From: an uncultured delta proteobacterium
Lineage (GTDB): Bacteria > Myxococcota > Myxococcia > Myxococcales > 40CM-4-68-19
Assembly (NCBI GenBank): GCA_903911145.1
Contig: CAIWCD010000039.1
Location: 1-64,000, forward strand
Length of the DNA stretch: 64,000 nucleotides
Direction: 5' to 3'
Part shown: positions 1 to 48,485 of the stretch, in pieces
Layout: every line of letters begins with the position of its first letter
Position numbering within the stretch: position 1 is the stretch's first letter
Translations under genes and position numbers: made by a program
The notes under the pieces: model-generated
The model's input: the letters and a program-made list of their open reading frames with translations, nothing else
Database searches by the model: none
Told to the model about the DNA's origin: nothing

Positions 1-141
1 CGCAGCGGATGCCGCGATGGCACCCGCGAATCCGTCGACACCGTGCTCAACATCGTCGCCTGTTGCTCGACCGGTCCGCGCATGCAGCAACTCGATCACA
101 GCCGAAGATCCCCGTCGATCAGAAAATCAACACCCTGCTAG
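1..141 (+). CDS. 3' end of an unidentified gene (partial)
   Basis: The frame open from base 1 ends at TAG 139-141. About the first 30 codons have strong G/C third positions like the window's real genes, and read as a plausible soluble segment (ESVDTVLNIVACCS). The last 15 codons are poorer in G/C at the third position, and the final five overlap the start of the palindromic element at 127. I recognise no family, and one of the other two plus-strand frames cannot be excluded. The 5' part lies outside the window. Confidence 0.3.
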   Translation, partial: RSGCRDGTRESVDTVLNIVACCSTGPRMQQLDHSRRSPSIRKSTPC

Positions 142-290
142 TGCGCCGCGCGGCACGGGCGTCGTTGGCCGTGCTCGGACATGCATCCGCGGCTGACGTA
201 GCTGCGCGCTCCGCTCCGCGTTGGGTGCGGCCGCTCCTGAACTGCGCGCGGCCAAAGACGCCCGCTGCCGCGCGGCGCCGTCACGATTGA
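127..290. repeat. 164-bp palindromic element, copy 1
   Basis: Starts TCAA (127-130) and ends TTGA (287-290). Left arm 143-174 pairs with right arm 244-278 through about 30 base pairs with one bulged base and two or three mismatches. The interior carries TCGGACATGCATCCGCGG near the left arm and GCCGCTCCTGAACTGCGC near the right. A second copy of exactly the same length lies at 47656-47819. The two copies share the interior blocks but have different, still self-complementary, stems. No open reading frame of its own is convincing. It could be a non-autonomous mobile element (MITE/REP-like) or a structured RNA or DNA hairpin. Confidence 0.8.
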
Positions 291-2297: not shown

Positions 2298-3130
2298 TAC
2301 GCGCCGCCTTCGACGCGATTGACGAATACCGCCGCGCCGGACTTGGTATCGAGCTGCTGGATCGCAACCGAAATGCTGACCTTCCCGTGCGTGAAGACCG
2401 TGAGCGCGCCGCCACCCGGCTGCTCCTGGAACCCGGCCGGGGTGAGCTCCTTGCGATAGAACGCGATGACCTCCGCGACGGATAACGAGCTCATATATTG
2501 ACCGCTCTGGGCGCGGGCGCCCGCGTCTTCCGAAGCATAGCCGAGATATCCCCGATTCTCTTTCGGGACGGGGAAGGGTGCGTCCTCGGCCGCATTGAGC
2601 AGCTTGGGGAGATTGCGTGGATTGGTAATGCCCACCATCACCAGCGTCTGCCCGTCCGCCTGCGGGAGGGCATTAATGAACCGCTGCATTCCATCTTTCG
2701 GGCTGAAGACGGAGACGTGCCCGGCCGACGCGTTCGCATAGGCGATCGGCGTGAGGCCGCGCTTTTCGAAGGCGTCTCGATAGTATTGAATTACCTGCTG
2801 CGGCCCGTCGCCGGTGGTGAAGATCGAGAGCTGCATCGGCTGCCCATTGACCGCGAGCACATCGCCGAGCGGGATCTCTCCGTTGATATCTGCTGACGGA
2901 TCGGCGCGCGGCCGCTTCCCATTGGGTGATAGCGGCGGCTCGGTCGACTTATGCGGATATCCCTGCGACTCATCTTGCGTCGCGCGCGGCATTCGCTGGC
3001 CGAATCCACCCGTCGCGCGCGCAGGGTGGAGTGCGCCGCCGAAGAAGGCCCCGAGCGCGAGCACGCCTGTCGCGCCGCCCAAACCAAGGAGCATGCGGCC
3101 TGCGCGGCGGAGAATGGTGAGTGCGCTCAT
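2297..3130 (-). CDS. Membrane-anchored protein with two similar alpha/beta modules
   Basis: 277 residues from the ATG at 3128-3130. The first 35 residues form a signal anchor (hydrophobic 15-32). After a Pro-rich linker come two modules with the same plan: V-I-x-Y/F-Y-R followed by a strand pair. The first is at roughly residues 90-160 (VIQYYRDAFEKRGL) and the second at roughly 210-277 (VIAFYRKELTPAGF). This suggests an internal duplication. The gene lies within the TadE/TadG-like cluster and is coupled to the pilin-like gene downstream. An earlier start is possible but would overlap the upstream gene. Function unknown; probably a periplasmic partner of the pseudopilins. Confidence 0.75.
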   Translation of the reverse strand: MSALTILRRAGRMLLGLGGATGVLALGAFFGGALHPARATGGFGQRMPRATQDESQGYPHKSTEPPLSPNGKRPRADPSADINGEIPLGDVLAVNGQPMQLSIFTTGDGPQQVIQYYRDAFEKRGLTPIAYANASAGHVSVFSPKDGMQRFINALPQADGQTLVMVGITNPRNLPKLLNAAEDAPFPVPKENRGYLGYASEDAGARAQSGQYMSSLSVAEVIAFYRKELTPAGFQEQPGGGALTVFTHGKVSISVAIQQLDTKSGAAVFVNRVEGGA

Positions 3131-3152
3131 ATCGGGTCTCGAATCGAACTGG

Positions 3153-4517
3153 TTAATAAGTGCAGTTGCCGAGCAGGTGGTAACGCGAGTGGGGATCGGC
3201 AACCTGCGCAGTGGCTCCACCTGCGAAGTAGTGGCCACGGCAGGCATAGGCCGCGACATACTTGTTATTGGTGGTCTGGCTCGCGGGCGGAGGAGCGACC
3301 ATCGCGCCGAAGGTGGTGCCCTTCGTCCCGCCGTCATTGGTCCAATACTTGGTGTTGATTCGATACGGGACGGTGTAGCGCGAGTTGTCCGAACCGGCGC
3401 CCATATCGGAATAGTCGTCCGCGGTGAAGACGCTGGTGGTGCTCGTGCCCTTGTCTCCGAGGCGATTGGACATCAATCCGCCGCCAGGAACGAACGCCGC
3501 GTCGGGCTGGCTGACGGGGAGAATCGTGATCGGGCCTCGCGAGAAGTTCACATTGCCCGTGTGCTCGCCGCTCGCGACATCGCCGAGCTTGTGATCCATT
3601 GGATCGGTCGAGAAGATATTCGGCAGGTTTCCTCCGAGCACCGCCTGCGTGAAGCCGGAGCTGAGGATCGCGTCCATGACATGGTTGATCGAGTTGATGA
3701 AGCCAACCTGTCCCATTCCGAAGAAGGCGATCTTGTTCACCTGATTTGAGACCATTGATTCGACGACCGGATAGGTATTGCTCGGCGAGATCGACGGGTC
3801 CATCAACGACGCTGGCGTCTGGTGCGTCTTCGTATAGGCCGCGGGCTTGGGCCACGCCTTCCACGAGTCATAGACCAGCCGCATCGGGCGCTCGCTGGCG
3901 AACGGCGTCTCGAACATGAAGTTCGACAGGGTATTGGTCGCGGCGAGATCCTGGCCGCCGTTCGGGTGCCCGGCGAAATCTCCGCCATTCATGATGATCG
4001 ATCCGGCGTGCGATGAATGCGTGAGCGATACCGTCGCCGAGGCTGAGCCGGAGGTATTGAACTGTTGGCGGTGCACGGCCCCGTTCACCGTTGAGACGAA
4101 GGCATTCAGGATGGTATTGGCCGCGTCGTCGATGAACCCCTGCCCGGTCGTGGGCAGGTGAATCTGCCCGTTCATATTCACGACTTCATAATTCGGATCG
4201 ATCGTCGCCTTCCAGCTGATCTGCGACGACTGCGGATACATCAAGAGGCCGGTATTCGCGCTGTGCGTCTTCAATCCGCTCTTCATATCGGCGAAGCGGG
4301 TCTGCACGTCGGCGGAGATGTCTGTCGGCGACCGGAAGACGGTCATCTCCCAGAGCGCGAAGCGCGCAGCCTCCTGCGCCTTGATCTTCAACACCATCAC
4401 GTCGGTCATCGCCGAGGACCAGTACATGATGAGGATTAAAATCGGGATGAGGATGGCCGCCTCGGTCATCGCCGAGCCCTCTTCGCCGCCGATCTGGGTC
4501 TTGCCGAGACGAGTCAT
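3153..4517 (-). CDS. TadE/TadG-like pseudopilin family protein
   Basis: 454 residues. The N-terminus has the TadE/TadG signature: GEEGSAMTEAAILIPILILI, a short cytoplasmic piece with a conserved Glu followed by a single membrane helix (residues ~18-36). The long remainder is extracytoplasmic, rich in Asn, Ser, Thr and Gly, and has no domain I recognise. Known TadE/F/G proteins are minor pseudopilins of the Flp/Tad pilus. No TadA ATPase, TadB/C or TadV peptidase gene is visible in this window. Asn and Tyr codons ending in T are more frequent here than in neighbouring genes. Confidence 0.75.
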   Translation of the reverse strand: MTRLGKTQIGGEEGSAMTEAAILIPILILIMYWSSAMTDVMVLKIKAQEAARFALWEMTVFRSPTDISADVQTRFADMKSGLKTHSANTGLLMYPQSSQISWKATIDPNYEVVNMNGQIHLPTTGQGFIDDAANTILNAFVSTVNGAVHRQQFNTSGSASATVSLTHSSHAGSIIMNGGDFAGHPNGGQDLAATNTLSNFMFETPFASERPMRLVYDSWKAWPKPAAYTKTHQTPASLMDPSISPSNTYPVVESMVSNQVNKIAFFGMGQVGFINSINHVMDAILSSGFTQAVLGGNLPNIFSTDPMDHKLGDVASGEHTGNVNFSRGPITILPVSQPDAAFVPGGGLMSNRLGDKGTSTTSVFTADDYSDMGAGSDNSRYTVPYRINTKYWTNDGGTKGTTFGAMVAPPPASQTTNNKYVAAYACRGHYFAGGATAQVADPHSRYHLLGNCTY

Positions 4518-47245: not shown

Positions 47246-47551
47246 TTAGGCAGAGATGGTGGAAATCTTCAGCTCGGTGAACGGCTGGCGGTGGCCACGG
47301 ATGCGGTCCCAGCCCTCTTCCTGCGTGCGGAAGTGCCAGAGCTTCTTGTGCAGACCGTGCGAGACGACCTCGGCCTCGACCTTGGCGCCCGCGAGGATCG
47401 GCGCGCCGACCTTCACGTCTGCACCTGAGCCGACGAGGAGAACTTCGAGCGCGATCTTGGCGCCGACGGCCTGCTCGAGCTTCTCGACCTTGAGCCGGTC
47501 TCCCGACTTCACGCGGTACTGCTTCCCGCCTGTCTTGATGACTGCGTACAT
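47246..47551 (-). CDS. rplU: 50S ribosomal protein L21 (divergent C-terminal region)
   Basis: 101 residues from ATG 47549-47551, preceded by GAGG. MYAVIKTGGKQYRVKSGDRL and GHRQPFTELKI are L21 signatures. The usual basic stretch before GHRQ (typically like KRRKNYRRKQ) is replaced by HKKLWHFRTQEEGWDRIR, which has fewer basic residues and two tryptophans. Length and position (rplU-rpmA-obg) are standard, so this is the functional gene. Confidence 0.97.
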   Translation of the reverse strand: MYAVIKTGGKQYRVKSGDRLKVEKLEQAVGAKIALEVLLVGSGADVKVGAPILAGAKVEAEVVSHGLHKKLWHFRTQEEGWDRIRGHRQPFTELKISTISA

Positions 47552-47630
47552 GTGAAACCTCGACTTCTTTCCGTCTGTGATGCCCGTCAAAGCAGGGGTG
47601 ACCCGCCGCCGGGCGCGGAAAGGGAGGGGC

Positions 47631-47659
47631 GATCTATTGGATCGGGGAGGGTGTGTCAA
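47631..47659 (-). promoter_or_regulatory. rplU promoter
   Basis: A perfect -35 TTGACA (complement of 47654-47659) and TAGATC (complement of 47631-47636) with a 17-base spacer. The leader to the rplU ATG is about 75 bases. The -35 box coincides with the left end of the palindromic element (TCAA at 47656-47659). Confidence 0.8.
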
Positions 47660-47819
47660 GATTCGAGGGCGCCGCGGCGCACTCGTGTCTGCTGGCCGTG
47701 CTCGGACATGCATCCGCGGTCGGCGCAAAAGCCTGCTCGGTTCGGGGTTGGGTGGGGCCGCTCCTGAACTGCGCGCGGCCAGCAGACACGGGCTGCGCCG
47801 CGGCTACGCACGATCTTGA
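47656..47819. repeat. 164-bp palindromic element, copy 2
   Basis: TCAA at 47656-47659 and TTGA at 47816-47819 bound an element of exactly the length of copy 1. Left arm 47671-47702 (containing GTGTCTGCTGGCCGTGC) pairs with right arm 47771-47804. The outer TCAAGAT/ATCTTGA also pair, and the complementarity extends beyond the ends as GGGTGT/ACACCC. Interior blocks CGGACATGCATCCGCGG and GCCGCTCCTGAACTGCGC match copy 1, while the stems differ from copy 1 on both arms together. It fills the gap between rplU and the pyrophosphatase gene. Confidence 0.8.
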
Positions 47820-47858
47820 GACACCCGCTGATTGGACAGGTCAAGAGCGCGTGATCGG

Positions 47859-48485
47859 CTACGTGTACTTCTCGTCGTAATCGTCGCGCGTGCGGCGGAT
47901 CACCTCGTGGGCCTCGGCGCGATCGTAGAGCTCGGGGATCTCGATCATGCGCTGCGCGCCGCTGCCGTCGGGGATCTGCTTGTAGGTGAGGAAGTAGTGG
48001 CGCAGGCGATCGCGCAGCGACTGGGGCAGCTCGGAGAGTTCGCGCAGGCTGCCGTAGACGGCGTCGCCCTTCATCACTGCGATGATCTTGTCGTCGGCTT
48101 CGCCCTTGTCGATCATCCGCAGGCCGCCGATCGGGATCGCCTCGATGAGGATCCCGCCGTGCGTGATCGTCTTCTCGCTGAGCACGCAGATGTCGAGCGG
48201 GTCGCCATCGCCGCGGATGTTCTGTTTGCCCGTGCGCTCCTCGCATCGCCGCGCGAGCCGCTCGCCGCACCAGGTGCGCGGGACGAATCCGTAGAGTGAC
48301 GGGATGACGTTGGAGAAGAGCTGCGGGCGATCGACCTTGAGCAGACCGCTCTCCTTGTCGAGCTCGTACTTCACGGCGTCGGTGGGGACGATCTCGATGT
48401 AGCTCGTCACCAGCTCGGGACAGGCCTTGCCGGGCGAGACGCCGTGCCACGGATGCGCCGCGAGCTGCGAAGGAAGCGTCTTCAT
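47859..48485 (-). CDS. ppa: Inorganic pyrophosphatase, family I
   Basis: 208 residues. The metal-site block DGDPLDICVL and DKGEADDKIIAV, plus KYELDKESGLLKVDR and YGFVPRT, identify a soluble family I enzyme. It carries a few extra residues around RRCEERTGKQNIRG. It hydrolyses pyrophosphate to drive biosynthesis. Upstream of its ATG is a short GC-rich inverted repeat containing the recurrent GCGGGTTTGC motif. Confidence 0.96.
   Translation of the reverse strand: MKTLPSQLAAHPWHGVSPGKACPELVTSYIEIVPTDAVKYELDKESGLLKVDRPQLFSNVIPSLYGFVPRTWCGERLARRCEERTGKQNIRGDGDPLDICVLSEKTITHGGILIEAIPIGGLRMIDKGEADDKIIAVMKGDAVYGSLRELSELPQSLRDRLRHYFLTYKQIPDGSGAQRMIEIPELYDRAEAHEVIRRTRDDYDEKYT

Follow-up and report, generated by a model that had tools for sequence, protein, structure and literature searches.

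Interspersed palindromic repeats directly behind stop codons in an uncultured delta proteobacterium

The element and its two copies in the window

The window, a stretch of 64,000 nucleotides from contig CAIWCD010000039.1, holds two copies of a hairpin element of about 140 bases (Table 1). The outermost part of the element is a stem of about 26 bp with one bulge, the arms of which differ between copies by 44% overall and by 56% in mid-stem. Inside the stem lies an asymmetric internal bulge of near-invariant sequence (the core, with a mean difference of 4%), and inside this an inner GC stem is followed by an apex that differs by 40% between copies. Many copies end in a 3' tail of about 20 nucleotides like CTTGGACCGGACAAAAGA, which both window copies lack; this tail is A-rich or mixed in composition, and not the T run that follows the hairpin of an intrinsic terminator.

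Table 1. Positions of the hairpin element, its parts and its neighbours in the window
Feature	Coordinates	Strand	Basis
Copy 1, whole hairpin element	143..281	+	R1 120 bits
TAG immediately 5' of copy 1	139..141	+	sequence; layout as in 26 other copies
Copy 1, 5' arm of variable stem	143..170	+	alignment, pair counts
Copy 1, conserved 5' core GTGCTCGGACATGCATCCGCGGC	171..193	+	near-invariant in family; partly kept in other species
Copy 1, variable apical region	194..226	+	mean pairwise difference 40% among copies
Copy 1, conserved 3' core GCGGCCGCTCCTGAACTGCGCGC	227..249	+	alignment, cross-species comparison, core distances
Copy 1, 3' arm of variable stem	250..278	+	alignment, pair counts
rplU, neighbour of copy 2	47246-47551	-	gene call; Pfam PF00829
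Copy 2, whole hairpin element	47669..47809	+	R1 128 bits
Copy 2, 5' arm	47669..47697	+	alignment, pair counts
Copy 2, conserved 5' core	47698..47720	+	alignment, cross-species comparison
Copy 2, conserved 3' core	47754..47778	+	alignment, cross-species comparison
Copy 2, 3' arm	47779..47807	+	alignment, pair counts
ppa, neighbour of copy 2	47859-48485	-	gene call; Pfam PF00719

A 46-codon open frame, a candidate coding frame that continues past the edge of the contig, ends at the TAG in front of copy 1. Copy 2 lies between ppa and rplU, in the orientation opposite to both. Outside the family stem, a longer imperfect inverted repeat (GGGTGTGTCAAGAT / ATCTTGAGACACCC; 47630-47680 and 47800-47830) encloses copy 2.

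The first-pass annotation had described a 164-bp element in two copies (127-290 and 47656-47819), equal in length, bounded by TCAA/TTGA ends, sharing two interior blocks and each folding into a long stem. Both copies were read in the sequence, the two interior blocks are common to them, and each does fold into a long stem (RNA folding z = -4.4 and -8.3 against shuffles for copies 1 and 2). The equal length and the TCAA/TTGA ends, however, are absent from the other copies described below, and in copy 2 these ends are part of the longer flanking inverted repeat.

Copy number and distribution

Far from being limited to two copies, the element was found in 34 near-complete copies, plus fragments, in the genome to which the window belongs (5.3 Mb in 53 contigs, 99% complete), a count on which BLAST, a covariance model and a core-motif scan agree. 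The covariance model (R1) was built from 32 copies and has 138 model positions; 33 copies scored at least 112 bits and one internally deleted copy scored 67 bits. When copy 1 was used as BLAST query against the whole genome, 38 matches were returned, two of which were the element's own arms. Among the fragments are one 3' half (C14:145739) and one 5' half (C46:49328).

Two weak covariance hits brought to light a shorter sister type in the same genome, of which three copies were seen; it has CCGTGCTC and CTGCGCGCGGC in common with the main family, set inside a different variable, nearly perfect stem. These short copies lie at C39:232260, C52:31247 and C52:31587 with the core GTGCTC / CTGCGCGC, and the two on C52 face each other at a distance of about 350 bp at most. 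Two copies of the main family (C12:18745 and C30:109939) carry a duplicated 5' half-unit at a spacing of 46 bp, and both half-units are broken at CAAACATGC inside the conserved core, as though the core held a preferred break or switch point.

A divergent sister family of 13 copies is present in G001, a genome of the same genus. The GTGCTC-RR-ACA core and the AACTGCGCGCGG block are common to both families, so that the core is kept across species where apex and stem differ; the inner part of the stem is identical in most of the G001 copies. Further GC-rich partial palindromes such as CCGCCGGGCGCGCTCCGGGGGAGGGG lie beside full copies in G001, which suggests that its repeat population is larger still. 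Of the 145 genomes searched in the order (147 in the class), two contain relatives of the element family, both of the same genus, and no other gave a match; exact-core searches of GTDB contigs, viral contigs, plasmids and phages gave no match either.

Placement behind stop codons

According to the simple gene calls of a codon-usage gene caller, 27 copies lie 3' of a co-oriented gene, and 26 of these begin within about 7 bp of the stop codon. Counted from where the stop codon ends, the stem starts between -5 and +7 bp in 23 of the 27. Among the remaining four, two open with an extra 46-bp 5' half-unit which itself abuts the stop, one is the internally deleted copy, which also abuts the stop and owes its listed distance to the deletion, and one is truncated at its 5' end. 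Under uniform placement in the native spacers, the combined probability of such an arrangement is about 10^-23. At two places where genes converge, both genes of the pair have a copy of their own (C39:141955/142173 and C12:18763/19041), and seven copies, including copy 2 of the window, are oriented opposite to both neighbours. The upstream genes, read from their sequences, are varied and include rho, mreB, recN, dksA and ugd among others. The placement is thus extragenic and near the 3' ends of genes, as it is for REPs.

This close abutment of stop codons would suit a structured 3'-UTR RNA that serves the host by blocking 3' exonucleases, stalling terminating ribosomes or binding a protein via the conserved bulge, the copies having been duplicated and kept for that function. 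E. coli REPs no more than 15 nt from stop codons have been reported to stall ribosomes (a report cited in PMC12306157), the bulge sequence is conserved, and no intrinsic terminator was found after most copies. The variety of upstream genes, the seven copies opposed to both neighbours and the presence of the same genes without the element in the same-genus relative all argue against such a host function, as do the arm mismatches and the Rfam searches considered below, and we regard it as unlikely.

TAG stops are common in the window (23 of 56 genes). Nineteen copies abut a TAG, which reads GTAG in ten cases, CTAG in six, ATAG in two and TTAG in one; feet without TAG in other copies are GAG, AAG and TGAG. 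Intergenic TAGs that are not stop codons outnumber TAG stop codons in the window (33 against 23), and no clear copy was seen to abut one of them. A simple DNA target, or targeting to TAG alone, therefore fails to explain the abutment of stop codons.

Insertion after native stops

The proteins encoded by mreB, rho and dksA end at the same residue in G001 and in other members of the bacterial family, where no element follows the stop. No element was found at the sigma-region-4 gene and kdsD in G001, or at the crp-like and ugd genes in other family members. Across 30 loci of relatives, a covariance model (R2) gave no match at E <= 0.001; its best match (E = 0.007), behind rho in G001, lacks the core and is simply a palindrome. 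Since the tested proteins end as their orthologues do and the relatives lack the element, the copies appear to have been inserted after native stops, although the absence in relatives could be loss instead. The pattern of many dispersed copies missing from the same sites of relatives is that of a MITE. No target-site duplication was defined, since the divergence of the relatives prevents empty sites from being placed to the base.

At the dksA locus the stop codon comes first, then the element and then a T-tract terminator, so the element does not itself act as terminator at this locus. The dksA stop of G001 is directly followed by a hairpin and T-run.

Covariation of the stem

Across 32 aligned copies, 96.7% of the pair cells are paired compared with 80.5% in shuffles, which bears out the earlier observation, made on two copies, that the arms diverge yet stay self-complementary. 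Cells changed on both sides number 177 against 48 in shuffles, with none of 500 shuffles as high, and 21 of the 37 pairs change on both sides; when the partner was slid by one to three columns, pairing fell to 27-44%. Covariation above background is thus present in the wider set of copies, as the first-pass annotation had proposed from compensatory change. As a mark of functional RNA, however, this change did not hold up.

In a structured RNA read from the plus strand, G·U should be several times as frequent as A·C among the mismatches. When each copy's own arms were aligned, 782 of the 820 positions were Watson-Crick pairs, seven were G·T, 15 were A·C and 16 were other, transversion-type mismatches; a cruder column-based count gave 13 G·T and 13 A·C. 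If G·U were tolerated 5:1 over A·C, the probability of seven or fewer G·T would be about 1e-7. G·T is thus not preferred to A·C in the arms (7 against 15), which indicates that the palindrome is kept at the DNA level, and constraint or correction acting on DNA is the simplest reading of arm palindromy. An antisense RNA, for which each A·C counted here is a G·T on the other strand, is less firmly disfavoured, yet the ratio of 15:7 is compatible with 1:1. Three pairs of the core helix are wobble-compatible (T·G in 31 of 32 copies, A-T to G·T in nine and C-G to T·G in 18), and RNA pairing would allow them too. No known Rfam family was recognized: at the gathering threshold only a tRNA was found, and at E up to 10 the matches were all sub-threshold.

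Three readings of the element had been put forward at the outset, namely a structured RNA, a functional DNA hairpin and a family of non-autonomous mobile elements recognised by their shape. The first is not supported by the arm mismatches. The other two fit best, because relatives are without the element at the tested loci and the family is confined to one genus.

Separate histories of arms and interior

Among copies, arm distance is unrelated to apex distance (Mantel r = 0.02, p = 0.40), and the 5' and 3' arms track each other (r = 0.72). In one pair of copies the interiors are almost identical (apex 6% and core 9% different) and the arms 53% different; in another pair the arms differ by only 5% and the apex by 40%. 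The arms are therefore inherited independently of the interior. Exchange of the interior by gene conversion, or renewal of the arms, would give this decoupling. A derivation of the arms from neighbouring sequence was also considered and rejected, as each copy's own flanks match its arms hardly more closely than the arms of other copies do, with the exception of two loci that have a partial second copy.

Search for a mobilising partner

No autonomous IS with matching terminal inverted repeats was identified, and the copies are not decayed fragments of a recognisable transposon, an origin that the first-pass annotation had allowed for. A Y1_Tnp gene (PF01797) was likewise sought and not found in the 99%-complete genome; such genes do occur in G001 and in other family members. 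Their occurrence there would agree with a true relative of GTAG-type REPs that was mobilised by a RAYT, the tyrosine transposase having since been lost from this genome. ORFs beside GTAG REPs have been reported to take their TAG stop from the repeat (PMC3733652), and GTAG is the foot of ten of the 19 TAG-abutting copies. Nonetheless, such kinship is improbable, considering that the four Y1 loci checked in G001 and four others (in G002 and G004) are without the element, that the element measures about 140 bp against 20-40 bp for REPs, and that the tetranucleotide is not fixed.

Three reverse transcriptase genes were found in the genome. Retrotransposed copies of an msDNA-like retron, for which repeats of Nannocystis exedens offer a precedent (known from a title cited in PMC6868368), are nevertheless a very improbable source, since the flanks of these loci (about 2.5-3 kb) contain no element-like sequence by BLAST or unfiltered covariance search and hence no msr-msd homologue of the element. 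The reverse transcriptase gene on C6 (locus 2785-3885) lies about 1.4 kb away from an ORF whose C-terminus resembles a formylglycine-generating enzyme; judged by gene neighbourhood, the gene looks like part of a diversity-generating retroelement. The other two are paralogues of 505 and 507 amino acids (C23 locus 2366-3883; C51 locus 2738-4261), each adjoining a membrane-protein-like ORF of about 690 amino acids; these are not obviously retrons, an unsystematic look having noticed no msr-msd.

A hairpin right after a stop codon is, as a matter of general knowledge, also the cassette layout of integron attC sites. A dispersed attC-like site is scarcely credible here, and the same applies to an omega-RNA (TnpB/IscB) element. 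The attC box RYYYAAC occurs in none of 32 copies and GTTRRRY in four, and the upstream genes are native rather than cassettes; the TnpB domain PF07282 is absent from both this genome and G001, and no Rfam match was obtained, the HEARO family being part of Rfam.

Relation to known repeats and proposed origin

GTAG-type REPs and BIMEs resemble the element in being interspersed extragenic palindromes near the 3' ends of genes, with a 5' foot that is often TAG or GTAG and supplies the stop (PMC3733652, PMC12306157); exact siting behind stop codons has thus also been reported for REPs. The element differs from them in its length of about 140 rather than 20-40 bp, its conserved bulged core with free arms, its lack of a RAYT and its roughly 34 copies instead of hundreds. 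REPs are closest in behaviour, and size, core, free arms and missing RAYT keep the element outside REP membership. MITE-like repeats (ERIC, RUP, BOX) are likewise short, non-coding, dispersed, foldable and near genes, whereas the element has no identified IS-shared terminal repeats, abuts stops strictly and has copy-specific arms. The repeats of Nannocystis exedens, probably also a myxobacterial family, are dispersed and reported as msDNA-like; no linked retron accompanies the present element, the comparison being with titles alone. Integron attC sites share an imperfect hairpin directly after the stop and stem parts free in sequence. Unlike them, the element is without R and L boxes and outside cassette arrays, and its free part is the stem and its conserved part the internal bulge.

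The repeat family, unmatched in the libraries searched, is a new variety of extragenic palindromic repeat. It is probably a lineage-specific, non-autonomous, interspersed palindromic DNA element, comparable to an oversized REP or MITE. Such an element would spread, or would once have spread, as single-stranded or cruciform DNA, with the core bulges recognised by a putative mobilising enzyme. In resident copies the arms may drift and then be re-equalised by DNA-level correction between arms, through quasipalindrome template switching, which would produce compensatory changes without RNA selection; the interior would meanwhile be exchanged among copies. Published work describes how template switching between imperfect inverted repeats homogenises their arms (PMC8604942) and attributes quasipalindrome mutations in E. 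coli to template switching (PMC7202029). The transcribed hairpin in the 3' UTR may influence the upstream mRNA, probably as a secondary matter. A bolder proposal, which we put forward with considerable doubt, is that the element represents a new class of mobile hairpin DNA, guided to stop codons by a putative enzyme or a translation-coupled process, in which the bulged interior is mobile and the arms are made or reset for each copy.

Whichever of these applies to the interspersed palindromic element, the order of native stop, hairpin element and native terminator provides a clean case for asking how palindromic repeats reach stop codons. The family also indicates that strong stem covariation can arise at the DNA level without any sign of RNA selection, and it is a case for caution in covariation-based RNA discovery.
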